Origin: Xaviernesmea oryzae
Lineage (GTDB): Bacteria; Pseudomonadota; Alphaproteobacteria; Rhizobiales; Rhizobiaceae
Direction: 5' to 3'
Assembly (NCBI RefSeq): GCF_900177415.1
Contig: NZ_FXAF01000001.1
Coordinates: 374,501 to 438,500 of the forward strand
DNA length: 64,000 bases
In this document: positions 1,886 through 43,965 of the stretch, one piece after another
Layout of the letters: each line of letters starts with the position of its first letter
Numbering within the stretch: position 1 is the first letter of the stretch
Program-made: the position numbers and the translations under genes
The notes under the pieces: generated by a model
The model's database searches: none
What the model saw: the letters and a program-made list of their open reading frames with translations, nothing else
What the model was told of the DNA's origin: nothing

Positions 1886-2428
1886 ATGACATCGCCGACC
1901 ACGCCCGAAAATCCGCTGAACGACGCGAGCGTCGAATTGTCGGAAGCGGCGCTCACGGAATTCGAGTGGTCATTGTGGCGGATTTCCGCAGCCTTCCTGC
2001 GCTGGCAGTCGGAATGCTCGAGCGAACTTGCCGGCGCCGGCCTGAGCGGCCTCGATACCGCCATCCTGCACACGATCCGTTATCGCAACAAGCCGAAAGG
2101 GCTGGGCGAAATCTCCCGCCTGCTCGGCCGTGACGACACCGCGAACATTCAATACGCCATCAAGAAGCTGCAGACCCTGCAGCTCATCGAACGCGTGAAA
2201 GGCAGGTCTCGCAAGGACACGCTTTATACACCCACCCGCAAGGGCACCAAGCTCACCCAGGATTACCGGGCACTGCGGCGGCACCTGCTGGTATCGCTGA
2301 TCCAGAAGATGGATCATGCGGAAAAGGGGCTCGGCGACGCGACGGAGATGCTGGAACTGCTGACGAGCTTCTACGACACCGCAGCCCGCCGCGTGGCGAG
2401 CGGCTCTCATCCGGTCGAACGCTCCTGA
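1886..2428 (+). CDS. MarR-family winged-helix regulator
   Basis: A 180-residue protein with a MarR-type winged-helix core: GLSGLDTAILHTIRY, the helix LGEISRLLGRDDTANIQYAIKKL, and a wing ending SRKDTLYTPTRKGTKL. The start at 1886 has CCGGAGAA upstream. Its 3' end overlaps the 3' end of the convergent cyclase gene by 22 bases. It lies next to the ligase/thiolase/cyclase operon and is one of three MarR genes in the window. By position it is my first candidate for the protein that binds the 16-bp operators, which is inference only. MarR proteins of this kind usually repress and respond to an aromatic acid or its CoA ester. Confidence 0.85.
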   Translation: MTSPTTPENPLNDASVELSEAALTEFEWSLWRISAAFLRWQSECSSELAGAGLSGLDTAILHTIRYRNKPKGLGEISRLLGRDDTANIQYAIKKLQTLQLIERVKGRSRKDTLYTPTRKGTKLTQDYRALRRHLLVSLIQKMDHAEKGLGDATEMLELLTSFYDTAARRVASGSHPVERS

Positions 2429-3198
2429 ACGAGCGCCAGCACGCGCAGCGGGCTGCCCGATCCGTTCTGGATCTTCAACGGCGCGGACACGATCACCGCT
2501 CCGCTCGCCGGCAGTTGGTCCAAATTAGCGAGGCACTGCAGCCCGTATCGCCCTGCACCATGCAGATAGTGATGCGCTGGATAAGGTGGTGAGAAATGCC
2601 CGGCCTGCCCGGCATCCGTGCCGATCGTCTCGGTTCCGAAGCCTATGATTTCCCGTTCTCCGACCAGGAAGCGCATCACCTCCGCATCCGGCCCCGGCGT
2701 ATGGGCGCCATCGGCCAGCAGGTTCGCGTAGGCTGCACCCGTTTTCTTCGACCAGTCGGTGCGCAACAGCACCCAGGATCGCGGTGGAATGCGGCCATGC
2801 TTCTTTTCCCATTTGGCCACGTCCGCGACGGTCAGCAGGAAATCCGCATCTTTGGCCGCTTCGGCGGAACAGTCGATCACACAGGCGGGCGCGATCATGT
2901 CGGACGGCGGCAGCGTGTCGACGGAATTGAGCGGCAGGTCGCGGCCCGTATACCAGTGAATTGGCGCGTCGAAATGCGTGCCCGTGTGCTCGCCGAAGGA
3001 AAGATTGTTCCAGTACCAGGCAGGCCCGGCCGCATCGTAACGGGAAATCCGCTCCATGCGGAACGGCGCCGACTGGCCGAGCTCGGGCGGCATGACGATA
3101 ACCGGAAAATCCGGCGAGAGCGTGTGGGTAAGATCGACGACGCGGATCTGTCCGCTCGCCAGCGCACCCGCGAAGGTGGCGAGGATGTCTCCGTTCAT
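2407..3198 (-). CDS. Cyclase-family metal hydrolase, isatin-hydrolase-like (copy 1)
   Basis: A 263-residue member of the cyclase family (PF04199; kynurenine formamidase, isatin hydrolase). The metal-binding motif HxGTHxDxPxH is intact as EHTGTHFDAPIHW, and GTDAGQAG and NLDQLP match the second cyclase at 19065. I place the start at the ATG 3196-3198, which overlaps the stop of the upstream gene as ATGA; a longer open frame runs upstream but only as a shadow of that gene. It is the last gene of the minus-strand operon 8165 to 2407. Proposed reaction: hydrolytic opening of isatin or a related cyclic amide to the amino acid. Kynurenine formamidase activity is the main alternative. Confidence 0.8.
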   Translation of the reverse strand: MNGDILATFAGALASGQIRVVDLTHTLSPDFPVIVMPPELGQSAPFRMERISRYDAAGPAWYWNNLSFGEHTGTHFDAPIHWYTGRDLPLNSVDTLPPSDMIAPACVIDCSAEAAKDADFLLTVADVAKWEKKHGRIPPRSWVLLRTDWSKKTGAAYANLLADGAHTPGPDAEVMRFLVGEREIIGFGTETIGTDAGQAGHFSPPYPAHHYLHGAGRYGLQCLANLDQLPASGAVIVSAPLKIQNGSGSPLRVLALVQERSTG

Positions 3199-4442
3199 TG
3201 GCCTACCTCCCGCTCGACCGCCTTCGGATTGTCGAACAGCCGCGCCTCGATATCCTTGGCGACATCGCCGACATAGATGTCTTCCAATCCGCGCTTCAGC
3301 CCGTCCATGATGGCATCGGCCAGAACCTTCGGCGCCACTTTGGGCGGCGGCACGGTCTGGAACCATTCCGTATCGAGCGGCCCGGTGAAAGCGTTGATCA
3401 CTCGCACGCCGCCCTGCCGAAGCTCGCTCCGCAGCCATTGCGACAGCGAAAGACAGGCTGCATGGGCGGCAGAATGCACGCCGAACTGCGGCACGTTGCT
3501 GAGCCCATGAACCGAAAGTACGTTGACCCAGGCAACGGCTCCAGTCTTGCCGTCAGCGCCGCGCGACCGCATCACTGGTCCGAAGGCCTGAGCCAGCCGC
3601 ATGAGCCCCATGGCAGTATGGTCCATTGCTTCACGCGCGGTATTGATCGCCCCGGCGTTGAAGAGATGTGTGGGCCGCACATGGTCGGCGGTGTTGATCA
3701 GGATTTCCACCTTGGCACCGATATCCATGGCAAGCTCCTGAATCGAGCGTTCGCTGGTCAGGTCCAGGTCGACGATCTCGACGCCCTCGATCGCTTCGAG
3801 TGCCTTCTGCTCTTCGAATGGTTTCCATCGGTCTGCCACACCGACGAAGACCTTCGCGGCGCCCGCTTTCTTCAACGCAATCGCCAGCGCCACGGCGACA
3901 GGACTGCGGCCGTCGGTGATCAACACCCGCCGGTATTTCGGATCGGCGGTCATTTCCCGCCATTGAGGATCGTCTTCCATATCGGGCGTCTCCGAAACGG
4001 GTCTGGCGAAGAGCACGGCCTGGCCGACCCGGTCGAGCTGCAATGACAAGGAGAGCTGACTGCCCGGCCCGCCGCAATCGCCATGCAGATGTACGACCGC
4101 GCTTGGCCCGCAATCGAGCCGCACGAGACCGGTGCGCCAGGGCATGTGCTCGCGAAAATAAGGATCGCCGGTCACCTCGATCCGGGTTTCCGAAAGCAGC
4201 ACCCCGCCTGTCGGCGCGTCCTTGAACGGCAGGTCGGCAGAAAGACAGTTCGGGCAGGCTTCGCGAGCGGGATAGGTATATTGCCCGCATTCGCCGCAGC
4301 ATTGCAGCATGAAGCGGCCCGCCGCCGCTGCAAGTGTCAGCCCATGCGCCTTATGGCTGCGGGAAGCAGGCGGCAGGAGCGGCTGCCTCGTTCGGACGAG
4401 CGGGTTCTTGCGGTTTGGTTTTGGGAGCGGTTCGGTCATCAT
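3195..4442 (-). CDS. DUF35 (zinc ribbon/OB fold) fused to a degenerate SDR domain
   Basis: A 415-residue fusion. Residues 45-150 form a DUF35 rubredoxin-like zinc ribbon (C49-GE-C52 and C63-PN-C66) with an OB fold, the usual partner of acyl-CoA thiolase-like enzymes. Residues 170-400 follow the SDR fold, but the glycine-rich TGxxxGxG reads TDGRSPVAV, NNAG reads NTAD, and YxxxK is replaced by His323-x3-His327 (HSAAH). Cofactor binding and reductase activity are therefore doubtful; BbsC of the benzylsuccinate pathway is a known inactive SDR subunit. ATGA overlaps join it to the thiolase gene upstream and the cyclase gene downstream. Likely role: obligatory partner of the thiolase-like protein. 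Confidence 0.75.
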   Translation of the reverse strand: MMTEPLPKPNRKNPLVRTRQPLLPPASRSHKAHGLTLAAAAGRFMLQCCGECGQYTYPAREACPNCLSADLPFKDAPTGGVLLSETRIEVTGDPYFREHMPWRTGLVRLDCGPSAVVHLHGDCGGPGSQLSLSLQLDRVGQAVLFARPVSETPDMEDDPQWREMTADPKYRRVLITDGRSPVAVALAIALKKAGAAKVFVGVADRWKPFEEQKALEAIEGVEIVDLDLTSERSIQELAMDIGAKVEILINTADHVRPTHLFNAGAINTAREAMDHTAMGLMRLAQAFGPVMRSRGADGKTGAVAWVNVLSVHGLSNVPQFGVHSAAHAACLSLSQWLRSELRQGGVRVINAFTGPLDTEWFQTVPPPKVAPKVLADAIMDGLKRGLEDIYVGDVAKDIEARLFDNPKAVEREVGQ

Positions 4443-5614
4443 GCCCTCGCCAGGATGGCGGCCGCCGAGGCAAGCCCGCGGTCGTAATTGATCATGCCGA
4501 AACCGGAAACGAGACCGAGCTTCGCGCCTTCGACTTGCGTGCCGCCGGCAACCCCGAGAAGCTGGCGCATCGCTTCGGTGATACCCAGATGCCCACCGGC
4601 CGCACCTGCCTGGCCGACGGAAAGCTGACCGCCCGACGTGTTGTGCGGAAAGGAGCCGTCGATGGTAAACGTGTGCTGCCGCACGAAATCCGGACCTTCG
4701 CCCTTGGCGCAGAACCCGAGATCTTCGAACTGCATCATCGAAATCACCGCATAGTCGTCATAGGTCTGGACGAAATCCATATCATCGGGTTTGACATCCG
4801 CCATGCCGTAGAGTTCGTCGCGATCGATCACCCAGCCGCCGCGCACCTGCACAGGGTCGCCCGGAAAGGCATTGTGCCGCTCGATCACCGAGAGAAGCCG
4901 CACGAAAGGCAGCCCGAGCGAGGCCGCGGTCTCCTCCCGCATAACCAGAAAAGCCTCGGCACCGGCACAGGGCATGACGCAGTCGAACAGATGGAAGGGC
5001 TCGGCGATCGGCCGCGCCGAGAGATATTGCTCCAGCGTCAGCGGCTTCTTCATCAGGGCATGCGGGTTCTTGAGCGCATTGTCGCGCTGAGCGACGCAGA
5101 GCTTGCCGAAGTCCTCGCGCGTCGCCCCAAAGGTATCCATGTAATGCCGGGCGATCAGCGCGAAGCTCGCATTCGGCCCGCCGGCGCCATAGGGGTAAGA
5201 CGCATCCTGGGCGAAGCGGGAGAAATTGGCGAGTGTCTTCCGGAACGTATCGACTTGGTTGGTATCCGCCGCGACGCAGGCAACGATATCCGCATCACAC
5301 GCCTGCACGGCCCGGGCAGCACGGCGGATCGACACGATGCCGGAGGCGCCACCCATCGGCACGTGGTCGAGATGGCGCGGCGTGAGACCGAAATGCTGGG
5401 TTAGCGCGATGGCGCTGTCCGGCCCCATCGTGAAGCTCGACACCGAAAAGCCGTCGAAATCCCTATGGCTGACGCCCGCGCCTTCCGCCAGCGCCCTGAG
5501 CGCCTTGCCCATCCACCAATGCGCGGTCTCGATGGAATAGCGCTGGTAAGGCACCGTCACCGGCACCGCCAGCACTACGCCATCGTAAGATTGCCGCGCG
5601 CGGGAAAGGATCAT
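4439..5614 (-). CDS. Thiolase-superfamily protein lacking thiolase catalytic residues; candidate retro-aldolase
   Basis: A 391-residue thiolase-fold protein (SCP2/lipid-transfer type). The start is the ATG at 5614, which overlaps the Ohr stop. The nucleophilic Cys is replaced by Ala90 (MGGASG), the His of the GHP motif is lost (LSVGQAGAAGG, residues 331-341), and the C-terminal Cys motif reads LVSGFGM. All three thiolase catalytic positions are gone. A tyrosine-rich TYDDY at 284-288 lies where steroid side-chain aldolases (Ltp2, Sal1) place a catalytic Tyr. Those aldolases need a DUF35 partner, and the next gene encodes one. Proposed activity: retro-aldol cleavage of a beta-hydroxyacyl-CoA. 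A non-catalytic role is the alternative. Confidence 0.75.
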   Translation of the reverse strand: MILSRARQSYDGVVLAVPVTVPYQRYSIETAHWWMGKALRALAEGAGVSHRDFDGFSVSSFTMGPDSAIALTQHFGLTPRHLDHVPMGGASGIVSIRRAARAVQACDADIVACVAADTNQVDTFRKTLANFSRFAQDASYPYGAGGPNASFALIARHYMDTFGATREDFGKLCVAQRDNALKNPHALMKKPLTLEQYLSARPIAEPFHLFDCVMPCAGAEAFLVMREETAASLGLPFVRLLSVIERHNAFPGDPVQVRGGWVIDRDELYGMADVKPDDMDFVQTYDDYAVISMMQFEDLGFCAKGEGPDFVRQHTFTIDGSFPHNTSGGQLSVGQAGAAGGHLGITEAMRQLLGVAGGTQVEGAKLGLVSGFGMINYDRGLASAAAILARA

Positions 5615-6039
5615 CAGGCGACCGTCAGCCTCACGTCGACATTGCCGCGGGTGGCATTGGAATAGGGGCAACGCTCATGCGCGCCGGCGACGATCTCTTC
5701 CGCCACGACGCGATCCACACCGGGCAGGGACGCGACGAGTTCGACCGCGAGCGCGTAGCCGACCGGCACCGGACCGATCCCCACCTTGGCGGTAATCGAG
5801 GCATCGTCCGGCAACGCGATCTTCCTGTTGCGGGCAACGAGTTTGACCGCCCCGAGGAAGCAGGCTGCATAACCGGCGGCAAAAAGCTGCTCCGGATTGG
5901 TGCCTTCGCCGCCCGGTCCGCCAAGCCCCTTCGGGACGGAAAGATTGACAGAAAAACTGCCGTCGAGGCTCTGAGCTTTGCCTTCTCGTCCTCCATGGGC
6001 GGTAACGGCAGTCTCGTAGAGAATCTTTTCCGGGGTCAT
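5614..6039 (-). CDS. ohr: Organic hydroperoxide resistance protein (Ohr/OsmC family)
   Basis: A 141-residue OsmC/Ohr protein. Both redox cysteines of the thiol-dependent hydroperoxide reductase are present: AACFLG near residue 60 and HERCPYSN near residue 121. I chose the ATG at 6039 over one four codons upstream because GGAGG lies six bases before it. The stop overlaps the thiolase start, and 71 bp separate it from the ligase gene upstream, so it may be read from the ligase promoter or its own. Its place inside a catabolic operon suggests protection against peroxides formed by the flavin oxygenases of the pathway. Confidence 0.85.
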   Translation of the reverse strand: MTPEKILYETAVTAHGGREGKAQSLDGSFSVNLSVPKGLGGPGGEGTNPEQLFAAGYAACFLGAVKLVARNRKIALPDDASITAKVGIGPVPVGYALAVELVASLPGVDRVVAEEIVAGAHERCPYSNATRGNVDVRLTVA

Positions 6040-6110
6040 GCAAGCCTCCATATAAGAATTTTAGCTTTGATTTCTCATATATCAAACAATGTTGGAGCGC
6101 GAAAGCCGCG

Positions 6111-7727
6111 TCAGCCTGTCTTGCGGATCGAAGCTTTCAGCTTGCGCAGGTCGATCGCCGAACCGTCTTCGACCGCCTTGGCGGCCATCGCTTTGATCTC
6201 GCCGCGCTGCAGTTTCTGGGTGGAACTCACCGGCAGCCTGTCGATGAAGACGACGTAACCGGGAAGCTTGTGATAGGCGATATGGGTGCTGGCCGCATCG
6301 ATGATCCGCTTCGCCCTCTCCCTCGGTTCGCCCAATTCCGCCGCCTCGTTTTCGACAACGAAGGCGAAGACTTCTTCGCCGCGCAACTCGTCCGGCACCG
6401 GCGTTACGGCGGAGGCCTTCACGCCCGGGTCCTTGGCAAGGGCTGCTTCGACTTCCAGAACGGCGATATTCTCGCCGCTGCGGCGGACGATGCTCTTCTT
6501 GCGGTCGAAGAAATAAAGAAGCCCCTTGTCATCGGCATAGACGACGTCGCCCGTATGGAACCAGCCGCCTTCCCAGGCTTCCTCCGTCGCCTTCTCGTCT
6601 TTCAGGTAGCCGCTGAAGAACCCGTCGCGTGGATTTTCCCCCTTGGCACGCACCAGAAGTTCGCCCGGCTTGCCGAGTTCGACATCGTTACCGACGTCAT
6701 CGACGATGCGGAAATCCATGCCGGCGCGCGGTCGGCCGATGCAGCGCAGCCCAGGCGTATATTCATCCGCCGCCGTCGTCGTCACGGCTCGGCCGCCGGT
6801 CTCCGTCATCGCCCAGGCCTCGACGATGGGAATGCGATAGCGCTCCTCGAACTCGATCTTGTGCCGCGCATCGACGCCCGGTCCCAGCGCGAATTTCACC
6901 CGATGCGTCCGCTCCGCCTCGACGACTGGAAGCTGGAGCAGGATCGCGGGGATGACGCCGAGACAGTGGACGATGGTCGCGCCGGAATCGGCGATCGAAT
7001 CCCACCAGGAGCTTGAATGGAAACGGTCAAGCGGCACGATCGCGCCACCCTTCATGATCATGCCGACGGCGGTGCAGCCGAGCGCATTCATGTGGAACAT
7101 CGGCAGCGGCGTCAGCGCCACTTCAGCCCCCTCGCTCATTTGCGCGATACCGCCTTGGGTCGTGTACCATTCGGCGACGGTGACGAAGTAAGCGTTGGAC
7201 AGAATGCAGCCTTTCGGCTTGCCGGTGCTGCCGGACGTGAACAGCAGCGCACATTCCTGTTCGGGCCCGCCCGGACGCGCCTCGTGAGGCTCCGGAGACG
7301 ATGGAATGTCGTCGCCAACGGCGATTACCGTTACTTTTTCCGGGCTGATATCCCGCAACTCATCCAGCCGTTCCGCCACCACGACCATCAGCGGCGCCTC
7401 GGCCATGTCGAGCTGAAAGAGCAGTTCGTCCCGGCGAAGGTCCGGATTGATCGGCACGATCGAAACGCCGATCGCATTCAGCGCCAACCAGTAGTCGAAG
7501 AACTCGGGCCGGTTTTCGAGGAGCAGCGCCACTCGCGATCCGATCCCGTATCCGGCCTCCGCAAACCTCCACTTCAGGAGGCCGGCGCGCGCGAAAACCT
7601 CGCCGTAGCTGTAACGGAAACCGTCAGATGCATATGGCAGCTTGGCGCTCTTCGGTGCAATCAGCATGGGCGCATCCGGATTTTTCAGCGCCCGATGCTC
7701 GAAGAGCAGATAGGGAGAATGCATCAT
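6111..7727 (-). CDS. AMP-forming acyl-CoA ligase, aromatic or indolic acid type
   Basis: A 538-residue ANL-superfamily ligase that activates a carboxylic acid to its CoA thioester through an acyl-adenylate. Visible motifs: LLFTSGSTGKPKG (P-loop), AWAMTETGG, GGWFHTGD, the hinge FFDRKKS and the catalytic lysine region STQKLQRGE. The start at 7727 is preceded by AAGGACGAGAG. Nine bases separate it from the SRPBCC gene, so it is the second gene of the operon. The substrate is not determined by sequence. From context I favour an indolic acid (indoleacetate or its oxidised form) or 2-aminobenzoate. Confidence 0.85.
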   Translation of the reverse strand: MMHSPYLLFEHRALKNPDAPMLIAPKSAKLPYASDGFRYSYGEVFARAGLLKWRFAEAGYGIGSRVALLLENRPEFFDYWLALNAIGVSIVPINPDLRRDELLFQLDMAEAPLMVVVAERLDELRDISPEKVTVIAVGDDIPSSPEPHEARPGGPEQECALLFTSGSTGKPKGCILSNAYFVTVAEWYTTQGGIAQMSEGAEVALTPLPMFHMNALGCTAVGMIMKGGAIVPLDRFHSSSWWDSIADSGATIVHCLGVIPAILLQLPVVEAERTHRVKFALGPGVDARHKIEFEERYRIPIVEAWAMTETGGRAVTTTAADEYTPGLRCIGRPRAGMDFRIVDDVGNDVELGKPGELLVRAKGENPRDGFFSGYLKDEKATEEAWEGGWFHTGDVVYADDKGLLYFFDRKKSIVRRSGENIAVLEVEAALAKDPGVKASAVTPVPDELRGEEVFAFVVENEAAELGEPRERAKRIIDAASTHIAYHKLPGYVVFIDRLPVSSTQKLQRGEIKAMAAKAVEDGSAIDLRKLKASIRKTG

Positions 7728-8206: not shown

Positions 8207-8222
8207 ATTTTAAGCATAAAAT
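8207..8222. promoter_or_regulatory. 16-bp operator over the -10 box of the ligase operon promoter
   Basis: ATTTTAAGCATAAAAT is an inverted repeat with one mismatch at the centre. It covers the minus-strand -10 (TATGCT), so bound protein would block RNA polymerase. It differs from the operator at 44211 only in its three central bases. Confidence 0.65.
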
Positions 8223-8403: not shown

Positions 8404-8569
8404 AATTTATACCTCGTTCTACCATCCCCTCAATTGTTATGGGGACTGCCGCAAAGAACGGCATCGGACAAGACTATCAGAAGCCCCTGGCAGGATTGCA
8501 GGCTTGTTTTCAGAAAACCGCCGCAGGTCCGTCGGCTTTGTGCCGATGGAAAGAACCAGAGGGATCGCC

Positions 8570-10105
8570 ATGACTTTCGAAATCGACCGCAGAAATCTCC
8601 TGCAGATGCTTGGCCTTGCCGCCGTCGGCGGCTCGGTGCTCTCGCAGGCCACCTTTGCCTTTGCTCAAGGCTCCGACAACGTCACCATCGGCTGGCCCAG
8701 CGACGTCCCGTCCTGGGACCCGAACCTGCGCTTCGTTCCGGATGCGCAGCCGATCTTCAAGCTGGTCTTCGATCAGCCGCTCGATCAGGCGCCCGACCTG
8801 AAGCTCGTTCCCAATCTCATCACCAAATGGGAACTGCAGCCGGATGGCCTCTCCATGCCCTTCGAGATCCGCAGCGACGTGAAGTTCCACAATGGCGACC
8901 CTATGACGATGGAGGATTTTAAGTACACCTTCGTCGAGCGCATCAAATCGGGCCTGAAGCTCGATATCGCCAACTCCTGGCGGACGCTGACCGATATCGA
9001 GATCACCTCGCCGACGTCAGGCGTCATGAAGTTCTCCGCTGCTACTCCGACCGCCCCGCAATGGCTTGCTTTCCTTGGCAGCTATCTCGTGCCGAAGAAA
9101 TATGTCGAATCCGTCGGGCCGGAAGAATTCGCCAAAAAGCCGGTCGGCACCGGGCCCTACAAGCTCGTCGATTACCAGATGAACTCGCGCATCGTGCTCG
9201 AACGCAACAACGATTATTTCGGCGCCAAGCCGAAGATCAAGCGCGTCACGATCGACATCATCAAGGATCCGTCCGCCCGCACTGCCGCCATCCAGTCCGG
9301 CCAGGTGGACCTAACCGTCAACATTCCGGTTCGCGAAGCCGAACGCCTCGGCAAGACCGAAGGCCTGACGGCCGAGATCAACCCTTTCACCCGCCTGATC
9401 CTGCTCCAGATGCGCAATGACATGGGTTTTACCGACAAGGCCGTTCGCCTTGCCGCCCATCATGCCATCGACAAGGCCGCACTCTCCAAAGCCTTCTACG
9501 GCGGTGCCGCCGTTCCGCTCTCCATTCCGGCCACGCCGGGCACGCCGGGTTATATCGAGGACTACAAGTTCTCCTACGATCCGGAACTCTCGAAGAAGCT
9601 GCTGGCCGATGCCGGCTACACGGCCGAGAAGCCCGCGACCTTCACGCTGGCAGCCACCAACGGCCAGTTTCCGAGCGATTTCGATATCGCCCGCGCTCTC
9701 GTCCAGATGTGGCAGAAGGTCGGCCTGAAAGTCGAGCTGCAGCAGATCGAATATTCGAAATATTTCGAGCTGAACCGCGGCGGCAAGCTGCCGGAAGCAA
9801 CCCTCTACAGCTTCGACAACGCCACCGGCGACCCGGAGATCTTCTCCGGCTATCTCATGAATCCGAAGATGCCGTTCGGCGCGTGGAAGGGTCAGGAAAT
9901 CGGCGACAAGATCCTCAAGCTATTTGTCGAACCCGTCTATGAGAAGCGCATCGCCGGCTACAAGGACGTGGCCAAGGAAGCCGTCGAAACGGGCGCCAAC
10001 ATTCCGATCCTGCAGAGCGTCCAGACACTGGTGCGCAAGAAGAACCTCAACTACGTCAAATACGGCAATGCCTGGGTTCTCGGCAGCACCATGTCCTGGT
10101 CATAA
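8570..10105 (+). CDS. ABC importer 1: family-5 solute-binding protein
   Basis: A 511-residue periplasmic binding protein of the dipeptide/oligopeptide family (SBP_bac_5). The N-terminus DRRNLLQMLGLAAVGG resembles a twin-arginine signal, with cleavage likely after FAFA. The family pattern VKFHNGDPMTMEDFKYTF is clear. I chose the ATG at 8570, 22 codons inside the frame, because AGAGGG precedes it. It heads the operon to 13927. A strong hairpin follows the stop. Members of this family bind peptides but also opines, sugars and aromatic compounds. The nearby catabolic genes make an aromatic conjugate plausible but unproven. Confidence 0.88.
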   Translation: MTFEIDRRNLLQMLGLAAVGGSVLSQATFAFAQGSDNVTIGWPSDVPSWDPNLRFVPDAQPIFKLVFDQPLDQAPDLKLVPNLITKWELQPDGLSMPFEIRSDVKFHNGDPMTMEDFKYTFVERIKSGLKLDIANSWRTLTDIEITSPTSGVMKFSAATPTAPQWLAFLGSYLVPKKYVESVGPEEFAKKPVGTGPYKLVDYQMNSRIVLERNNDYFGAKPKIKRVTIDIIKDPSARTAAIQSGQVDLTVNIPVREAERLGKTEGLTAEINPFTRLILLQMRNDMGFTDKAVRLAAHHAIDKAALSKAFYGGAAVPLSIPATPGTPGYIEDYKFSYDPELSKKLLADAGYTAEKPATFTLAATNGQFPSDFDIARALVQMWQKVGLKVELQQIEYSKYFELNRGGKLPEATLYSFDNATGDPEIFSGYLMNPKMPFGAWKGQEIGDKILKLFVEPVYEKRIAGYKDVAKEAVETGANIPILQSVQTLVRKKNLNYVKYGNAWVLGSTMSWS

Positions 10106-10127
10106 GCTGCCTGAATGAAATCTCGAG

Positions 10128-10149
10128 GGGTCCGGATGCGTCCGGACCC
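10128..10149 (+). terminator. Intercistronic hairpin after binding protein 1
   Basis: GGGTCCGGA, loop TGCG, TCCGGACCC, then TTTCCC: a perfect 9-bp stem between the binding-protein gene and the first permease gene. It probably acts as a partial terminator or mRNA stabiliser, giving more binding protein than membrane subunits. Confidence 0.7.
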
Positions 10150-10180
10150 TTTCCCTGACATCGTGATACGGGGCAAACGC

Positions 10181-11197: not shown

Positions 11198-11198
11198 C

Positions 11199-31716: not shown

Positions 31717-31729
31717 GATTGAAGTCCCT

Positions 31730-31750: not shown

Positions 31751-31758
31751 GAGTTCTA

Positions 31759-35451: not shown

Positions 35452-37800
35452 ATGCGCATCGTCTGTATCGGTGGTGGTCCCGCAGGTCTTTATTTCGCGC
35501 TCCTGATGAAGAAGTTTCATCCCGAGCATTCCATCTCCGTGATCGAGCGCAACCGGCCCTATGACACGTTCGGTTGGGGCGTGGTTTTCTCCGACGCGAC
35601 CATGGTTTCCATGCGGGCCTGGGATCCCGAAAGTGCGGTCGAAATCGAGGATGCTTTCAACCACTGGGACGATATCGAACTGCTCTTCAAGGGCACGCGC
35701 CAGCGCACATCCGGTCACGGCTTCGTCGGCATCGGCCGCAAGAAGCTGCTCAACATCCTCCAGCGCCGCTGCGAAGCGCTCGGCGTCGAACTGGTCTTCG
35801 AGACGGAAGCCGACGGCGACACCGATTATCCGGATGCCGATCTGATCATCGCCTCCGACGGCTTCAACTCGAAGATCCGCAACCGCTATCCGGAAGTCTT
35901 CGAACCGGATCTCGTCGTCCGCCCCAATCGCTACATCTGGCTCGGCACCAACAAGCTCTTCGACGCCTTCACCTTCGATTTCCGCAAGACGGAACACGGC
36001 TGGTTCCAGGCGCATATCTACAAGTTCGACGAAAAGACCTCGACCTTCATCGTCGAGACGACTGAAGAGGCCTACGAAAAGCACGGCCTCGGTGAAATGG
36101 ACCAGCAGGGCTCGATCGAGTTCTGCCAAAACCTCTTCTCGGAAGTCCTCGAAGGCGCCGAGCTGATGACCAATGCGCGCCACCTGCGCGGTTCCGCCTG
36201 GCTGAACTTCAACCGCCTGATCTGCGGCAAGTGGAGCCATTTCAACGGCAATTCGCATGTGGTCCTGATGGGCGACGCCGCCCATACGGCGCATTTCGCG
36301 ATCGGTTCCGGCACCAAGCTCGCGATCGACGACGCGATCGAACTGACGAACCAGTTCAACAAGCTGGGGCATACGAAAGACAAGATTCCGGCGGTCCTTG
36401 AGACCTATGAGGAAATCCGCCGCGTCGATGTCGCCCGTATTCAGAACGCGGCCCGCAACGCCATGGAGTGGTTCGAAGTCGTCGGCCAGCGTTATGCCGA
36501 TACGCTGGAGCCGGAACAGTTCATGTATTCCATGCTGACCCGCTCGCAGCGCATCAGCCACGAAAACCTGCGCCTGCGCGATCCGAAATGGCTTGAGGGT
36601 TACGAGCGCTGGTTCGCGAAGAAGAACGGCCTCGATGTCAGCGGCAACGGCCGCACCCTGCCGCCGATGTTCACGCCCTATTCGCTGCGCCAAACCCACC
36701 TGCCGAACCGCATCGTCATGTCGCCGATGGCCATGTATTCCGCCAGGGACGGCCTGCTGGACGATTTCCATCTCGTCCATCTCGGTTCCCGGGCGCTCGG
36801 CGGTGCCGGCCTCGTCTTTGCGGAAATGACCTGCGTCTCGCCGGATGCGCGCATCACGCCCGGCTGCCTTGGCCTCTGGAACGGCGAACAGGCGGCGCGC
36901 TGGAAACGCTTCATCGACTTCGTGCATGAAAATTCCGCCGCCAAAGTAGGCATCCAGCTCGGCCACGCCGGCCGCAAGGGCAGCACCAAGGTTGCCTGGG
37001 AAGGTATCGACCAGCCTCTGGAGGAGGGCGGTTGGCCGCTGATCTCTGCTTCGGCGCTTCCCTATCTCAGGAACAGCCAGGTCCCGAAGGCGATGGATCG
37101 CCAGGATATGGACAGAGTGAAGGCCGATCACGTCCGGGCCGCCAGATATGCCGCCGAAGCCGGTGCCGACTGGCTGGAGCTGCACTGCGCCCATGGCTAT
37201 CTGCTGTCGAGTTTCCTCTCGCCGCTAACGAACATCCGCACGGACGAATACGGCGGCAGCCACGAGAACCGCGCCCGCTATCCGCTGGAAGTCTTCAAGG
37301 CGATCCGCGAGGTCTGGCCGGAAGACAAGCCTATCTCGGTGCGCCTCTCCTGCCACGACTGGTTCGAGGGCGGCAACACGCCGGAAGACGCCGCGCTCTT
37401 TGCCGGAATGTTCAAGGAGGCCGGTGCCGACCTCATCGACTGCTCGTCCGGCCAGGTGTGGAAGGAAGAAAAGCCGGTCTACGGCCGCCTCTTCCAGACG
37501 CCCTTCTCCGACAAGATCCGCAACGAGATCGGCATTCCGACGATCGCCGTCGGCGCGATTTCGGAAGCCGACCACGCCAATTCGATCATCGCCGCAGGCC
37601 GCGCCGATCTCTGCGCCGTCGCCCGTCCGCATCTGGCCGACCCTGCCTGGGTGCTGCACGAAGCCGCCAAGATCGGCCTGACGAACATTCCGTGGCCGAA
37701 GCAGTATTATTCCGGCAAATCGCAATACGAGACCAACCTCGCCCGTGCCGCGGCAGCGGCTGCCGCTCCGGCGCCCGGCCCGACGGTGGTGGCGAAGTAA
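35452..37800 (+). CDS. 2-aminobenzoyl-CoA (or salicylyl-CoA) monooxygenase/reductase
   Basis: A 782-residue two-domain flavoprotein. Residues 1-400 form an FAD aromatic hydroxylase ([15 protein letters not shown], later [14 protein letters not shown]). Residues 405-770 form an Old-Yellow-Enzyme-type FMN domain ([35 protein letters not shown]). This architecture and size are those of 2-aminobenzoyl-CoA monooxygenase/reductase of Azoarcus, which hydroxylates and reduces the ring to a non-aromatic aminocyclohexenone-carboxyl-CoA. Databases also label the family salicylyl-CoA 5-hydroxylase. AGGAGG precedes the start. It heads the operon to 43965. The RidA and beta-oxidation genes behind it favour the amino substrate. 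Confidence 0.88.
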
Positions 37801-37809
37801 GGACGCGTC

Positions 37810-38607
37810 ATGGGTGAAGCGATTCCTGCCAGGCTTTCCAGTCGTCATGCCCTCGTCACCGGCGCGGGATCGGGGATCGGCGCGGCGATCGCGACGGCAC
37901 TCGTCGAGGCCGGCGCACGCGTGACATTGGCCGGCCGCCGGGCCGAGCCGCTCGAAGCGCTGGCGAAGGCGCTCGGAGCCGACAGCGCCTGCGTTGCGGA
38001 TGGTTTCGACGTGACCGACGAGATCGCCATAGACAATGGCTTGAAAACCGCCCGTTCCGCTTTCGGCCCGGTCGACATTCTCGTCAACAATGCCGGCGAA
38101 GGCCCGAGCGCTCCCTTTGAAAAGACCTCGCCCGACATGTGGAACCGGGTGATCTCCGTGGACCTCACCGGCGTCTTCCTGGTGAGCCAGGCCGTGCTCC
38201 CGGACCTCAAGGCCTATGGCGCCGGAGCCCGCATCATCAATATCGCCTCCACTGCCGGGCTGACGGGCTATGCCTATGTCTCGGCCTATGTCGCCGCCAA
38301 ACACGGCGTCGTCGGCCTCACCCGGTCGCTGGCGCTGGAGCTCGCGAAAACAGGCATCACCGTCAATGCCGTCTGCCCCGGCTTTACAGATACGCCGCTG
38401 ATCGCCCGCTCGATCGAAACGATCGTCGCGAAGACCGGGCGCACGGCCGAAGAAGCATTGAAAGAATTCACCAAAAGCAACCCGCAGGGACGGCTGGTTA
38501 AGCCGGAGGAGGTCGCGGACACGGTTCTGTGGCTGGCATCACCCGGAGCGGCATCGATCACCGGACAGGCAATCGCCGTTGCCGGGGGAGAAATCATGGC
38601 AGGCTAA
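37810..38607 (+). CDS. SDR-family oxidoreductase
   Basis: A 265-residue classical short-chain dehydrogenase with all motifs: TGAGSGIG near residue 18, NNAG near 95, Ser in NIASTAG, and YVAAK. It is probably a 3-hydroxyacyl-CoA or cyclic ketone dehydrogenase acting on the ring product. It is the second gene of the operon, nine bases after the monooxygenase, with GGACG upstream. It contrasts with the degenerate SDR domain at 3195. Confidence 0.88.
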   Translation: MGEAIPARLSSRHALVTGAGSGIGAAIATALVEAGARVTLAGRRAEPLEALAKALGADSACVADGFDVTDEIAIDNGLKTARSAFGPVDILVNNAGEGPSAPFEKTSPDMWNRVISVDLTGVFLVSQAVLPDLKAYGAGARIINIASTAGLTGYAYVSAYVAAKHGVVGLTRSLALELAKTGITVNAVCPGFTDTPLIARSIETIVAKTGRTAEEALKEFTKSNPQGRLVKPEEVADTVLWLASPGAASITGQAIAVAGGEIMAG

Positions 38608-38646
38608 CGGCCGGCATGATCTTGGTACGAAAGCTGGGAGATCAAG

Positions 38647-39093
38647 ATGGAACTGGAAAAGGGCATCACCAAGAACGGTAGCGGATATAACGGCACCACC
38701 TGGAACATCCTCGGCCAGGTCTACTTTCCGAAGGCGGTCTGCGACGACACCTTCGCTTTTGAGACCAACAGCCTGCCGGGACAATTCGTGCCGGTGCATA
38801 TCCATCCGACCCAGGACGAGTTCATCCTTGTGCAGGAGGGCGAACTCGATCTGAAGCTCGACGGCCAATGGGTCAAAGCGAAGGCCGGAGATCTGGTCCG
38901 CATGCCGCGCGGCATTCCTCACGGTTACTTCAACAAATCCGACAAACCGTGCCGGGCGCTCTTCTGGGTCTCGCCGGCACGCAAGCTCCCGCAGCTTTTC
39001 GGAGAGCTGCACGACATGACCGACGTGGAGGAAATCGTGAAGGTTTCCGCTGCGCACGAGGTGGATTTCCTGCCACCCGCGGCCAACGACTAA
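38647..39093 (+). CDS. Small cupin-domain protein
   Basis: A 148-residue single cupin with HIHPTQDEFILVQEGE and GDLVRMPRGIPHGYFN, so the His-His-Glu-His metal set is present. It is too short for gentisate dioxygenase. It may be an isomerase, a dioxygenase or a binding protein for a pathway intermediate. GGGAGATCAAG precedes the start. It belongs to the monooxygenase operon. Confidence 0.75.
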   Translation: MELEKGITKNGSGYNGTTWNILGQVYFPKAVCDDTFAFETNSLPGQFVPVHIHPTQDEFILVQEGELDLKLDGQWVKAKAGDLVRMPRGIPHGYFNKSDKPCRALFWVSPARKLPQLFGELHDMTDVEEIVKVSAAHEVDFLPPAAND

Positions 39094-39156
39094 TACACGG
39101 AAGACGCGTTCCGGCCACCTGACAAGGCGGCCGGCCGGTGACGGGAGGAAACGAGC

Positions 39157-39999
39157 ATGAGCGACGTGATGAGAGAAATGAAACGCAGCTTTCGCGATTA
39201 CCAGCCCAGGCATTTCCTCTGGGAAGTGAGTGAAAACGACCGTGTCGCGACGATCCGCCTTAACCGGCCGGAGCGCAAGAACCCGCTGACCTTCGAAAGC
39301 TATGCGGAACTGCGCGATCTCTTCCGCGATCTCGTTTATGCGTCCGATATCCGCGCCGTCGTTCTGACCGGTGCAGGCGGTAATTTCTCCTCCGGCGGCG
39401 ACGTCTTCGAAATCATCGAGCCGCTGACCCATATGGCGATGCCGGACCTGCTCGCATTCACGCGTATGACGGGAGATCTCGTCAAGGCGATGCGGAAATG
39501 CCCGCAGCCCGTCGTGGCCGCCGTCGACGGCGTCTGCGTCGGCGCCGGCGCGATCCTCGCCATGGCCGCGGACATGCGGCTGGCAACACCGGAAGCGAAG
39601 ACGGCGTTTCTCTTCACCCGTGTCGGTCTGGCCGGCGCGGATATGGGCGCCTGCGGGATCCTGCCGCGCATCATCGGCCAGGGCCGCGCCGCCGAGCTCC
39701 TCTTCACCGGCCGCTCCATGAGTGCCGAAGAGGGACGGACCTGGGGCTTCTACAACGCCCTGCACGCAGCCGAAAAGGTCGAGACGGAGGCGGTCAAGCT
39801 CGCTCATTCGCTGGCCGACGGCCCCTGGTTTGCGCATACGATGACCAAGACCATGCTGAACCAGGAATGGGCCATGGGGATCGACGAAATGATCGAGTCG
39901 GAAGCCCAGGCCCAGGCCGTCTGCATGGCGACCAAGGATTTCCGTCGCGCCTTCGAAGCCTTCGCCGAGAAACGCAAGCCGGTCTTCGAGGGCAACTGA
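39157..39999 (+). CDS. Enoyl-CoA hydratase/isomerase family protein
   Basis: A 280-residue crotonase-fold protein: [17 protein letters not shown] (oxyanion hole) near residue 70 and [20 protein letters not shown] near 125. GGGAGGA precedes the start. It probably hydrates a ring-derived enoyl-CoA or hydrolyses a cyclic 3-oxoacyl-CoA to open the ring; the family does both. Its stop overlaps the acyl-CoA dehydrogenase start (TGATG). Confidence 0.88.
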
Positions 40000-41174
40000 T
40001 GGCGGCCGCGACCAACCTCAAAGGTCCAAGCCGGGATTTCCTGGACTGGCCGTTCTTCGACGAGAGCCATAAGGCACTCGCGGGAAAGCTCGATGCTTTC
40101 GCGGCGTCGGGCGCGCTTTCGGCCATCGACCATTCGGATACGGACGGCGCCTGCCGATCGATAGTCAAGGCGCTTGGAAAAGCCGGACTGCTGGACGCCG
40201 CGACCGGCGCCGGCGGCAAAGAACCGATCGATTCCCGCGCCGCCTGCCTCACCCGCGAAACGCTCGCCTGGCATGACGGGCTCGCCGACTTCGCCTTTGC
40301 CATGCAGGGTCTCGGCACCGGCGCGATCGGTCTCTCCGGATCGAAAGAGTTGCGCCGCACGGTGCTGCCGAAGGCGCAGTCCGGCGAATGGATTTCCGCA
40401 TTCGCGCTATCCGAGAAGGAAGCCGGCTCGGATGTCGCAGCCATGGCCTGCGCCGCGTGCAAGGACGGCGACCACTATATTCTCGATGGCGAAAAGACGT
40501 GGATTTCCAACGGCGGCATCGCGGACGTCTATACCGTCTTCGCCCGCACCGGCGAGGCACCGGGCACGCGCGGTATTTCCGCCTTTGTGGTATTCGCCGA
40601 CGATCCGGGCTTCTCGATCGCCGAACGGATCGACGTGATCGCCCCGCATCCGCTGGCGACGATCCGCTTCGAGAATTGCCGCATCCCCGCTTCGCGCCTG
40701 CTTGGCAGCCCCGGCGAAGGCTTCAAGATCGCGATGCGGACGCTTGACATCTTCCGCGCTTCCGTCGCCGCGGCGGCCCTCGGCTTTGCCAGACGCGCGC
40801 TGGACGAAGCGGTCGTTTATGCCAAGGCGCGGCCGATGTTCGGCAACCACCTTTCCGACCTGCAGCTCACCCAGGCCGCCTTCGGAGACATGGCCGCAGA
40901 GATCGATGCCGGCGCGCTGCTCACCTACCGTGCGGCCTGGCGTCGCGACGTGCAGGGTCTGCCGACCACCAAGGAAGCCGCCATGGCCAAGATGGTCGCG
41001 ACCGAAAATGCCCAGGCCGTCATCGACCGCGCCGTGCAGATCTTCGGCGGCCGCGGCGTGAAGAGCGGGGAGATCACCGAGAGCCTCTATCGCGAAATCC
41101 GGGCGCTGCGCATCTACGAGGGCGCGACCGAGGTGCAGAAGCTCATCATCGCCCGCGAACTTCTGAAGGCGTGA
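39999..41174 (+). CDS. Acyl-CoA dehydrogenase
   Basis: A 391-residue flavoprotein with [30 protein letters not shown] and the C-terminal [18 protein letters not shown] whose Glu fits the catalytic base of this family. I start at the ATG 39999, coupled to the hydratase stop; the frame extends upstream only as a shadow. It would desaturate the saturated or ring-opened acyl-CoA of the pathway, passing electrons to ETF. Confidence 0.9.
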
Positions 41175-41181
41175 GGCGATC

Positions 41182-41613
41182 ATGGCTTACACCACGTCCC
41201 GCCACTTGAACTTCGGAGATTGCGACCCTTCCGGCATCGCCTACTTCCCGTCCTATCTCAACATTCTCGTCGGGGTTTACGAGGAGTTCTTCAGGGCGAT
41301 CGGCTTTGCCTGGCCGGAAATGATCAACGAACGGAAAATCGGTCTTCCGACCGTGACCCTGGATCTCACCTTCAAAAGTCCCGGCTTTCACGGCGACATG
41401 ATGAATTTCACCGTTAGGGTCGTCCGGATCGGCAACAGCTCGGTTGACCTCGAACACGAGGTAAAGGCGGGCGACCGGTTGCTCTGGACCGCGAAGCAGC
41501 GATTGGTCGCCACCTCCCTCGAGACACACAAGGCCTGTCATTGGCCGGACGATATGCGCGCAGCGCTCACACAGCATTTGGAGAAGAAAGATGCACATGA
41601 TTCTGCAGCCTGA
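41182..41613 (+). CDS. 4-hydroxybenzoyl-CoA-thioesterase-type hotdog protein
   Basis: A 143-residue hotdog-fold thioesterase with GDCDPSGIAYFPSY, the Asp-containing signature of 4-hydroxybenzoyl-CoA thioesterases. It probably hydrolyses dead-end aromatic CoA esters such as 2-aminobenzoyl-CoA to recover CoA, as proposed for similar genes in CoA-dependent aromatic pathways. It overlaps the RidA gene by 23 bases. Confidence 0.85.
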   Translation: MAYTTSRHLNFGDCDPSGIAYFPSYLNILVGVYEEFFRAIGFAWPEMINERKIGLPTVTLDLTFKSPGFHGDMMNFTVRVVRIGNSSVDLEHEVKAGDRLLWTAKQRLVATSLETHKACHWPDDMRAALTQHLEKKDAHDSAA

Positions 41614-41986
41614 AGGCTGGGCCAAACCGATCGGTTACGCCAACGGCGTCGCCGCCACCGGCCGCCAGGTCTTCGTCGGCGGGCAGATCGGCTGGAACGC
41701 TGAGTGCCGGTTCGAAACCGACGATTTCGTCGGCCAGGTCCGTCAGACGCTTTCCAACGTCGTGGCCGTGCTTGCCGAAGCCGGCGCAGGGCCGGAACAC
41801 GTCACCACGATGACCTGGTATTTCACCGACAAGGCCGAATACCTCGATAATCTGAAGGGCATTGGCCAGGTTTACCGCGAGATCATGGGCAAGCATTTCC
41901 CGGCCATGGCCGCCATGCAGGTCGTGGCGTTGGTGGAAGATCGTGCCAAGATCGAGATCCAGGCAACCGCCGTCATTCCGGATTGA
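41591..41986 (+). CDS. RidA-family imine/enamine deaminase
   Basis: A 131-residue RidA/YjgF protein with GRQVFVGGQIGWN, the VRQTLSNVVAVLAEAGA helix and MTWYFTDK. The canonical substrate-binding Arg near residue 105 is not obvious, so this may be a subfamily variant. RidA proteins hydrolyse reactive enamines or imines to ketone and ammonia. The monooxygenase/reductase product from 2-aminobenzoyl-CoA is itself an enamine, so removal of the amino group here is a natural role. Dedicated placement in the operon supports this. Confidence 0.8.
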   Translation: MHMILQPEGWAKPIGYANGVAATGRQVFVGGQIGWNAECRFETDDFVGQVRQTLSNVVAVLAEAGAGPEHVTTMTWYFTDKAEYLDNLKGIGQVYREIMGKHFPAMAAMQVVALVEDRAKIEIQATAVIPD

Positions 41987-41991
41987 AGACC

Positions 41992-43965
41992 ATGAGCGAG
42001 ACGACCGCATTTTCGTCAACGGTTTCGGCCCCAAACTCGGTTAAAGCCAGTAACGGGATCCTGATCGTCACGATCGACAATGCCCCGGTCAACGCGACAT
42101 CCGCGGATGTCCGCACCGGGCTCGAACGTGCGCTTTCCCATGCGGAAGCGGCAGCCGATGTGACGGGCGTCGTCATCACCGGCGCCGGCAAGACCTTCAT
42201 CGGCGGTGCGGATATCAAGGAATTCGGCAAGCCGGCCATCGAACCGACGCTGCCGGCCGTCATCGAAAAGATCGAGGCTCTCTCCAAACCGGTCGTTGCG
42301 GCGCTGAACGGCGTTGCACTCGGCGGCGGACTGGAATTGGCTCTTGCCTGCCACCATCGCGTTGCTTCCGCCGCTGCCCAGGTCGGCCTGCCCGAGGTGA
42401 AGCTTGGCATCGTACCGGGCGCCGGCGGCACGCAGCGTCTGCCGCGCCTGATCGGCATACCGGCAGCGCTCGATCTCATCGCCTCAGGCCGCTCCGCGAA
42501 GGCCGAAGAGGCCCTCTCGCTCGGTATAATCGACGAAATCGCCCAGAGTGACCTTTTGGAAACTGCCGTTTCGGCTGCGCGGAAGCTTGCCGGCAAACCG
42601 CTCCGCCGCACGGGCGGACTGACCGTCGCCACAGCCGATCCGGCCGAAATCGAAAAGGCCTCGGCAAAGATCCTTGCCAAGTCACGCGGCCAGAAAGCAC
42701 CGGCCGAAGTCGTGCGGCTCGTTACCTCTTCGACGCGTCCCTTCGCTGAAGGCCTGGCGGACGAGCGCGCCACATTCCTCGCGCTCCGTGACAGCCGCGA
42801 GGCCGCAGCGCTCCGCCATGTCTTCTTTGCTGAACGGGAAGCCTCCAAGGTCGAGGGTCTGGAAAGCGTTGAGGTCCGCCCGGTCTCGACAATCGGCATA
42901 TGCGGTCTCGGCCTGATGGGAAGCGGCATCGCGGTCGCGGCGCTTGGCGCCGGATATACGGTCATCGGCCTCGACCAGACGCCGGAAGCCGCCGAAAAGG
43001 GACGGGAACGCATTATCGGCCTGCTGGAACGCAACCTCGCATCCGGCCGCCTCGATCAAACCGGGTTCGAAGCCCGGAAGGCCAAGCTTTCAGCGACCGC
43101 GTCGGATGCCGATCTCGCTCCCTGCGACCTTGTCATCGAAGCGGTTTTCGACGACCTCGCCGTCAAGACCGAACTCTTCCGGCGGCTCGATAAAGTCGTT
43201 CGGCCGGATGCGGTACTGGCGACCAATACAAGCTACCTGAACCCCGACGACATCGCTGCTGCCACCGCTTACCCGGGCCGCGTGCTGGGCATGCACTTCT
43301 TTTCGCCCGCGCATGTCATGCGGCTCATCGAAGTCGTCCGTTGTGCGAAGACTGCACCGGATGTGTTGGCGACCGGGCTCGCCGTCGCCAGGAAACTGCG
43401 CAAACTGCCGGTCGTGACCGGCGTCACCGAGGGCTTCATCGGCAACCGCATATTTTCCGCCTATCGCCGTGAAGCCGAATTCCTTCTGGAGGATGGCGCC
43501 CTGCCGCACGAGATCGATGCCGCGCTGGAAGACTATGGTTTTCCGATGGGCCTCTTCGCCGTCTATGACATGGCGGGGCTGGAAATCGCCTGGGCGCGCC
43601 GCAAGAGGCAGGCAGCCACCCGCGATCCCTCGATCCGTTATGTCGAGATCGCCGACACCCTATGCGAGGCAGGCCGCTTCGGCCAGAAAGCCGGTCGCGG
43701 CTGGTACGCCTACCCGGAAGGCAAGAAGGCGATCGATCCCGAAGTGACGGCGATCATTGAAGCTGCCCGCGCGAAGAAGGGCATCACGCCGCGCACCTTC
43801 TCCAAGGACGAGATTCTCCAACGCCTGCTGAACGCCATGGCGGCGGAAGGCGAAACCTTGCTTGCCGAAGGCATCGCCGCCCGGCCCGGCGATATCGACC
43901 TTGTGATGATCAACGGCTACGGCTTTCCCGCCTACAAGGGCGGCCCGATGTTCGCCAGCAACTGA
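41992..43965 (+). CDS. Bifunctional enoyl-CoA hydratase / 3-hydroxyacyl-CoA dehydrogenase
   Basis: A 657-residue FadB/PaaH-type fusion. N-terminal crotonase domain: GAGKTFIGGADIKEFG, GGGLELALAC and GLPEVKLGIVPGAGG keep both catalytic Glu. Central NAD domain: CGLGLMGSGIAVAALGAG near residue 302, then MHFFSPAHVMRLIEVV. C-terminal 3HCDH domains follow. I use the ATG at 41992; a TTG three codons earlier is possible. Last gene of the operon; it completes beta-oxidation of the ring-cleaved product. Confidence 0.9.
   Translation: MSETTAFSSTVSAPNSVKASNGILIVTIDNAPVNATSADVRTGLERALSHAEAAADVTGVVITGAGKTFIGGADIKEFGKPAIEPTLPAVIEKIEALSKPVVAALNGVALGGGLELALACHHRVASAAAQVGLPEVKLGIVPGAGGTQRLPRLIGIPAALDLIASGRSAKAEEALSLGIIDEIAQSDLLETAVSAARKLAGKPLRRTGGLTVATADPAEIEKASAKILAKSRGQKAPAEVVRLVTSSTRPFAEGLADERATFLALRDSREAAALRHVFFAEREASKVEGLESVEVRPVSTIGICGLGLMGSGIAVAALGAGYTVIGLDQTPEAAEKGRERIIGLLERNLASGRLDQTGFEARKAKLSATASDADLAPCDLVIEAVFDDLAVKTELFRRLDKVVRPDAVLATNTSYLNPDDIAAATAYPGRVLGMHFFSPAHVMRLIEVVRCAKTAPDVLATGLAVARKLRKLPVVTGVTEGFIGNRIFSAYRREAEFLLEDGALPHEIDAALEDYGFPMGLFAVYDMAGLEIAWARRKRQAATRDPSIRYVEIADTLCEAGRFGQKAGRGWYAYPEGKKAIDPEVTAIIEAARAKKGITPRTFSKDEILQRLLNAMAAEGETLLAEGIAARPGDIDLVMINGYGFPAYKGGPMFASN

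Follow-up and report, generated by a model that had tools for sequence, protein, structure and literature searches.

Gene content and organisation of the locus

We analysed a 64,000-nucleotide stretch of Xaviernesmea oryzae DNA (hereafter the window: positions 374501-438500 of contig C2 of genome G000, ∼62% GC, from a host genome of 6.07 Mb rated 100% complete) that carries a cluster of genes predicted to degrade oxidised indoles through isatin to 2-aminobenzoyl-CoA. Coding regions were picked by codon preference and named by comparison with Pfam, NCBIfam and PDB. An earlier, sequence-only reading had described a CoA-dependent route from indoleacetate or isatin to 2-aminobenzoyl-CoA, encoded in three operons within 42 kb. 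All the gene classes it named were found where it had placed them and the 42-kb grouping stands, but strand and spacing, from which operons were inferred, point to at least five transcription units rather than three.

The first unit lies on the minus strand, its genes overlapping at their ends or nearly so. It encodes an acyl-CoA ligase of the AMP-ligase type, resembling IadF (6111-7727; Pfam/NCBIfam), an Ohr/OsmC-family protein (5614-6051; TIGR03561, 169.8 bits against a cut-off of 88.85), an IadG-type thiolase-like protein (4439-5614), an IadH-type protein (3195-4442) and CYC1, an isatin hydrolase A-type cyclase and IadI counterpart (2407-3198). Two details of the earlier reading required adjustment. 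The CYC1 reading frame, previously begun at 3438, most likely starts at 3198, and what had been listed as a DUF35 protein proved by Pfam and alignment to be a fusion, in which a DUF35/ChsH2 zinc ribbon with OB fold makes up one half and a degenerate SDR domain follows.

Divergent from this unit is ABC importer a (8504-13927, plus strand), comprising an SBP_bac_5 binding protein, two permeases and a fused ATPase. Beyond it lie a protein with no Pfam match (13956-14660, minus), an SBP_bac_3 binding protein with its permease (14977-16578, plus), a MarR regulator (16587-17159, minus), the CrtO/CrtI-like flavoprotein FAD1 (17172-18749, minus), the isatin hydrolase B-type protein CYC2 (19065-19850, plus), the CrtO-like flavoprotein FAD2 (19912-21501, plus) and a MarR regulator of this isatin module (21534-22043, plus). 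After a VirJ/lysyl-PG synthase pair come, on the minus strand, IorB (26140-27708; POR plus DUF6537, IadB counterpart) and IorA (27698-29851; a TPP enzyme, IadA counterpart and predicted isatinate oxidoreductase). On the plus strand, ABC importer b (30151-35338; SBP_bac_5 type) then leads into 2-aminobenzoyl-CoA monooxygenase/reductase (ACMR; 35452-37800; PRK08255, 1348 bits against a cut-off of 1078) and a beta-oxidation set at 37810-43965 (SDR, cupin, enoyl-CoA hydratase, acyl-CoA dehydrogenase at 39996-41174, 4HBT thioesterase, RidA and a FadB-like protein).

This order is kept in the related genomes G001, G002, G015, G022, G023 and G027, some of which lack FAD1/FAD2, importer b or the cupin; in G005 the cluster is divided between two contigs. 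Since gene order is kept in relatives, the cluster is more than a chance assembly.

Relation to iad loci and two probable entry modules

In Achromobacter, Bordetella and other named loci, IorA-IorB-IadD-IadE is followed by genes for a ligase, a thiolase-like protein, DUF35-SDR and a cyclase, and 2407-7727 matches this set gene for gene. In two Achromobacter loci (L130 and L132) the order is IorA, IorB, reductase, IadD, IadE, ligase, thiolase-like, DUF35-SDR and cyclase (the place of IadE being seen in L130), which fits the series iadA to iadI. The window thus shares counterparts of IadF, G, H, I, A and B with the iad auxin-degradation loci of Variovorax, Achromobacter and Bradyrhizobium, and the overlap with iad-type loci that the sequence-only reading had raised as a possibility is borne out. 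Unlike those loci, the window has importers of the SBP_bac_5 type and combines its iad-like genes with ACMR and a module of flavoproteins and isatin hydrolase B. Its DUF35-SDR protein is 96% identical to the counterpart in Neorhizobium sp. CSC1952.

Excerpts of Conway 2022 (PMC9613470) describe iorB/iadB and iorA/iadA as exclusive markers of iad-like operons, gene 72 being iadA, and name the adjacent oxygenase subunits IadD/IadE, homologues of iacCD, as the anchor of that survey. In the window the IorAB markers and the iadFGHI homologues are present; no IadD- or IadE-type gene was found anywhere in the host genome. PF00866 had no match there (3 of 14 control genomes were positive), an IadD query (the L132 protein) gave host best matches of at most 36% identity over partial coverage only (at most 38% in the 14 genomes searched), and the three host Rieske alpha genes lack, by eye, the CPHKG motif of IadD proteins. 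Because no such oxygenase gene was found, free indoleacetate, the substrate first proposed, is doubtful. We retain the logic of the earlier route as the best reading, with its substrate shifted towards oxidised auxin or other oxindoles.

To place this gene set in a wider context, we used a sample of 297 genomes from the host order, which we took to be that of the rhizobia, with E-value limits of 1e-90 for DUF35-SDR and 1e-150 for both IadD and IorA. DUF35-SDR was present in 14 genomes, IadD in 7 and IorA in 55. The 7 genomes with IadD all fall within the 14 with DUF35-SDR, all of which also have IorA; in the other half of these 14, IadD was not seen.

Free indoleacetate might nevertheless be degraded if an unrecognised oxygenase, either the 13956-14660 protein or an IacA-type flavin enzyme elsewhere, replaced IadCDE. 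The set here called entry A (6111-7727 with 2407-5614) is complete apart from the oxygenase, and the 13956-14660 gene is kept within the cluster in relatives and preceded by one of the palindromes described below. Its predicted model (pLDDT 83.8) resembles the anthrone-oxidase-like structure 5f9p and other monooxygenase folds, remotely (9-14% identity for the top five). But the same family also occurs in Bradyrhizobium loci that do carry IadD, which argues against simple replacement, and no Pfam match to the Peripla_BP_6-type binding protein found near other IorA loci appeared among the scanned window genes. We regard this alternative as somewhat unlikely. An indoleacetate-binding regulator, IadR, is a further mark of iad-like loci. 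The MarR regulator at 21534-22043, one of three MarR-like proteins in the window, is nearest to 3cjn (5.8e-41) and 7kym (3.7e-25), with the indoleacetate-binding 3cdh at 3.2e-6.

The step after the ligase was examined in alignments of 20 IadG-type (at least 55% identity) and 20 IadH-type proteins, each comprising the window protein and those of 19 loci. All 20 IadG-type rows have Gly at the position of the thiolase Cys (CxSG motif), Gln in place of the thiolase His, and YDDY where Ltp2 and Sal have their catalytic YDHF and YDCY. In none of the 20 IadH-type rows does the SDR domain hold both Tyr and Lys of YxxxK. The nucleophilic Cys expected of a ketothiolase, the annotation of IadG, is thus missing, as is the YxxxK expected of an active dehydrogenase, the annotation of IadH. 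Of the features of Ltp2/Sal aldolases, the Tyr of the YD motif and the DUF35 partner are found, and the third residue, His or Cys in those enzymes, is Asp throughout. In retro-aldol cleavage the Ltp2 base is the Tyr of YDHF, and the catalytic residues of Sal are the Tyr and Cys of YDCY (PMC12329534). The steroid side-chain retro-aldolases Ltp2-ChsH2 and Sal-Shy also share the thiolase fold associated with a DUF35 domain; unlike them, the present pair has DUF35 fused to a degenerate SDR and a predicted indolic substrate.

With YDDY, no thiolase Cys and no YxxxK, the IadG-type protein fits an Ltp2/Sal-like retro-aldolase that would yield isatin and acetyl-CoA. Dioxindole-3-acetyl-CoA would be a beta-hydroxyacyl-CoA with a tertiary alcohol, a type of substrate that such an aldolase would split, and we infer isatin and acetyl-CoA as its products. 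The proposal that the thiolase-like/DUF35 step cleaves to isatin is thereby strengthened, the sequence favouring an aldolase-type over a thiolase-type active site. More generally, these counts speak for retro-aldolase activity in IadG and for IadH as its non-enzymatic partner.

A different account follows the Jiang 2025 preprint (PMC12633357), excerpts of which read the reactions of IadF, G, H and I from annotation. There, dioxindole would arise when IadF-G-H take off the side chain in a reductive reaction, IadH being an active dehydrogenase and isatin no direct product. Deletion of iadI accumulates C8H7NO2 in that work, as this account would have it; reduction of isatin by another enzyme would likewise yield C8H7NO2, and the absence of YxxxK from all 20 IadH rows, together with an altered glycine motif, speaks against an active dehydrogenase, the window SDR at 37810 keeping both motifs. 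The reductive account is accordingly unlikely in our view.

The aldolase reading places isatin at the centre of the route, and two predicted isatin hydrolases are encoded. CYC1 has isatin hydrolase A (5nnb, E 3.9e-117) and CYC2 isatin hydrolase B (4j0n, E 2.2e-124) as best match, and the metal motif HxG[TA]HxDxPxH is present in both and in all 50 rows of two family files (window rows included). In the pocket of CYC2, Trp65 and Trp84 of LaIHB are kept and Phe63 is replaced by Trp. Assignment of both cyclases as isatin hydrolase-like, part of the earlier reading, agrees with this sequence evidence. Both types, with the metal motif, are known from Labrenzia aggregata (PMC6117287); what differs here is a gene context with IorAB, FAD1/FAD2 and ACMR, and the main text of that paper uses neither of the terms 'gene cluster' and 'operon'.

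FAD1 and FAD2, which flank CYC2, likely form with importer b, of the dipeptide type, a second entry module (entry B); the sequence-only reading had not listed this flavoprotein pair. We compared neighbourhoods in named IorA loci, the best 80 of 580 confirmed in a genome-contig scan, 61 of which span at least 20 kb. Among these 61, an isatin hydrolase accompanies IorA in 42, IadD in 24, FAD1 or FAD2 in 22, ACMR in 21 and DUF35-SDR in 15. Importer b occurs in 17 of the 22 FAD loci versus 3 of the 39 others. IadD and the FAD module avoid each other, being found together in a single locus. From the order sample we took 24 IorA loci (from 24 of the 55 genomes, chosen for contig position, all at least 67% identical and 7 from one genus); FAD1 or FAD2 is present in 18 and an isatin hydrolase in 19. 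A predicted structure of FAD2, based on 8 rows, reached a mean pLDDT of 35.6 and was set aside.

IorAB and the predicted supply of 2-aminobenzoyl-CoA

IorA accompanies each entry module: in 60 relatives it is present in 10 of 10 genomes with a full-length DUF35-SDR match and 8 of 8 with FAD2, and it is found in all 7 IadD genomes of the order sample. A quick IorA tree of 78 rows required 13 label changes for FAD, 9 for IadD and 12 for ACMR, counts that are inflated because the labels see only 10 kb per side. Outside the family, locus L178 (genome G294) holds IorAB, ACMR, ligases, CYC1, DUF35-SDR and the aldolase within 20 kb, with no IadD match. In loci L113, L114 and L115 a 4HBT thioesterase, 31-34% identical to that of the window (Pfam-confirmed in L114), directly follows IorB, and in Bradyrhizobium loci 4HBT, FAA hydrolase and double cupin genes lie near IorA. 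IorAB thus recurs with isatin hydrolases, ACMR or thioesterase as entry modules vary. An ACMR or thioesterase gene next to IorAB is consistent with a CoA thioester as its product, and neighbourhoods in several taxa support the tie between IorAB and ACMR that had been suggested from this locus. In L101, L102, L116 and other Bradyrhizobium loci, the combination of FAA hydrolase, double cupin and 4HBT suggests a gentisate-like ring-cleavage branch in loci where no ACMR was seen.

The family profiles of the two subunits differ in outcome. IorA scores 276.4 bits against TIGR03336 (indolepyruvate ferredoxin oxidoreductase alpha), below the cut-off of 650.9, and IorB exceeds the cut-off of the broader PRK08312 (718.7 vs 348). 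In the open-licence PMC literature that we searched, no paper was found that proposes conversion of isatinate to 2-aminobenzoyl-CoA by IorAB, nor a tested role for IorAB.

ACMR scores above the NCBIfam equivalog cut-off and lies with beta-oxidation genes, as in the 2-aminobenzoyl-CoA pathway named in the review PMC6221969; its NCBI name is salicylyl-CoA 5-hydroxylase/oxidoreductase. Unlike that pathway, the window has no 2-aminobenzoate-CoA ligase-type gene, the best match within it being the entry A ligase at 29% identity, and supply of the CoA ester by IorAB is predicted instead. The idea that IorAB replaces this ligase was ruled out, since all 33 genomes with ACMR, the host included, have a ligase-type gene, in the host on another contig. 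That region (L154:9761-16682) also holds importer-like genes and, by eye, a gene similar to the MarR at 16587-17159.

Taken together, these observations make it probable that the cluster encodes a catabolic funnel: isatin, delivered by two entry modules, would pass through isatinate to 2-aminobenzoyl-CoA for dearomatisation by ACMR. Entry A would convert dioxindole-3-acetate to its CoA ester and split this by retro-aldol cleavage into isatin and acetyl-CoA, the DUF35 protein acting as partner of the thiolase-fold aldolase and its attached SDR domain being probably dead. Entry B, comprising importer b, FAD1 and FAD2, would produce isatin by oxidation of a different oxindole, perhaps 2-oxindole or one of the conjugates. 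The hydrolases would open isatin to isatinate, IorAB would decarboxylate isatinate oxidatively to 2-aminobenzoyl-CoA, and ACMR would dearomatise the thioester. All substrates and products are inferred; genes, altered active sites, neighbourhoods and palindromes are what can be read from the DNA. The sequence-only reading had known of no proven route joining these steps. An outline of the first half is already in the literature under the name of the iad pathway (Conway 2022; Jiang 2025), and the step from isatinate to 2-aminobenzoyl-CoA is a prediction.

Several observations weigh against this funnel, as do some of the palindrome counts given below. ACMR does not necessarily rely on IorAB: IorA was not found in 19 of the 33 ACMR genomes, and contig C5 gives the host a 2-aminobenzoate-CoA ligase of its own. 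An isatin hydrolase was not seen in 19 of the 61 named IorA loci or in 5 of the 24 order-sample loci; IadD, FAD and aldolase genes are likewise missing from 7 of the former and from all 5 of the latter; the IorA loci of G052, G055 and G058 are without the hydrolase, and in G048 it is on a different contig. In excerpts of Jiang 2025, the compound reported upstream of IadI is C8H7NO2 (the formula of dioxindole) and not isatin, and iadC-K2 yields anthranilate without iadA or iadB, the strain background lacking genes 77-53 and hence iadA (gene 72; PMC12633357, PMC9613470). IorAB is therefore dispensable for anthranilate formation in Variovorax.

This last result favours an alternative in which the substrate of IorAB is some other 2-oxoacid, for instance indolepyruvate. 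Without help from IorAB, isatinate would be decarboxylated to 2-aminobenzaldehyde and this oxidised to anthranilate, from which the C5 ligase would make 2-aminobenzoyl-CoA. The ligase found in every ACMR genome would suit such a path. A compound of formula C8H7NO3, which is the formula of isatinate, bears on the choice. C7H7NO was detected in the Jiang 2025 strains, in line with the alternative, but C8H7NO3 builds up in strains without iadAB, strongly only in those overexpressing iadC-K2 (PMC12633357, in part). IorAB moreover stays with isatin hydrolases across differing entry modules, and the low IorA score against the indolepyruvate family does not favour indolepyruvate. We judge this alternative unlikely. 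The substrates might also be non-indolic, namely other aryl glyoxylates or hydroxy acids, given that homology is the source of every substrate named here; but the metal motif in both proteins of isatin hydrolase type, the LaIHB Trp residues of CYC2 and the link to ACMR fit an ortho-amino ring, and we consider this very improbable.

On the funnel reading, we tentatively propose that IorAB is an isatinate:CoA oxidoreductase linking oxidised-auxin catabolism to 2-aminobenzoyl-CoA, and that FAD1-isatin hydrolase B-FAD2-IorAB-importer is an unrecognised, Rieske-free isatin route, commoner in the order than iad, by which rhizobia may feed on auxin inactivated by plants or on further oxindoles. Gene neighbourhoods speak for a CoA thioester as the product of IorAB. 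Should entry B exist, a survey that starts from the Rieske oxygenase genes would overlook much isatin-type catabolism (IadD in 7 versus IorA in 55 of the 297 genomes), and bacteria may consume auxin already oxidised by the plant. The iad pathway affects plant root growth.

Palindromes and neighbouring genes

A palindrome of the type TAnTTTAAnnTTAAAnTA, operator 1, occurs at four intergenic places in the window and in none of 100 shuffles: 8207-8222 between the ligase and importer a (∼480 bp ahead of the former and ∼280 bp ahead of the latter), 14758-14773, 35404-35419 upstream of ACMR, and 44211-44226 ahead of an operon for a peptide-type ABC importer and M20 peptidases. A looser form occurs at 7 places genome-wide; 5 belong to the cluster, and one of these precedes the window by 1.8 kb. 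These same window sites were the source of the motif, which is AT-rich, and AT-rich motifs favour intergenic gaps; its genome-wide matches are no more numerous than those of a backwards control pattern (5+6 vs 11+7).

Across loci, some of them duplicates, the 300 bp upstream of ACMR contain operator 1 in 44 of 52 cases; the figure is 15 of 86 for IorA, 12 of 29 for importer b, 4 of 54 for CYC2 and 2 of 26 for the ligase, and no site lies upstream of the aldolase (0/20) or the module MarR (0/31), against a background of 0.044 per kb. In the ligase/importer-a gap, 7 of 9 genomes share the same 16 bp, and mean conservation is 97% vs 71% for flanking sequence; a scan of this gap gave 19 of 760 windows with equal conservation. 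In 28 held-out loci each of the 10 sites precedes CYC2/FAD1, IorA, importer b or ACMR, covering 1 of 4 ACMR and 2 of 24 IorA genes. No site was found upstream of ACMR in 8 of the 52 loci or in 3 of the 4 held-out ones, or in the C5 ligase region. The MarR at 16587-17159, which has relatives beside ACMR, is a candidate reader of operator 1. The fifth palindrome of the cluster, that 1.8 kb before the window (L153:10742), lies, by eye, ahead of 2-hydroxyacid dehydrogenase-like and quinone-reductase-like dehydrogenase genes.

The IorA promoter of the window carries no operator 1 and instead a second palindrome, operator 2 (TATGC-N4-GCATA; 30010-30023), in the gap between IorA and importer b. It has 20 sites in 1570 kb (80 loci) and stands upstream of 19 of 78 IorA genes; held-out loci have 4 sites, 2 at IorA.

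The cargo of the importers was not named, the best PDB matches of binding proteins a and b being peptide, dipeptide, nickel, heme and agrocinopine binders. Downstream of the cluster, 44281-52374 encodes a peptide-type ABC importer and two M20 peptidases, and a similar set adjoins IorA in G026. NCBIfam names the M20 protein at 45885 acetylornithine deacetylase and that at 50977 a 'hypothetical protein' subfamily; that they may be auxin-conjugate hydrolases is an idea only. Between the isatin-module MarR and IorB, VirJ-family and phosphatidylglycerol lysyltransferase-type genes (22103-26046), whose link to the pathway is not obvious, recur in seven relatives. The Ohr/OsmC-family gene adjoins the aldolase operon also in the Bosea locus L094. 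At the end of that operon in the window lies the third winged-helix, MarR-like regulator (1886-2428), and a gene similar by eye flanks the module in G052.

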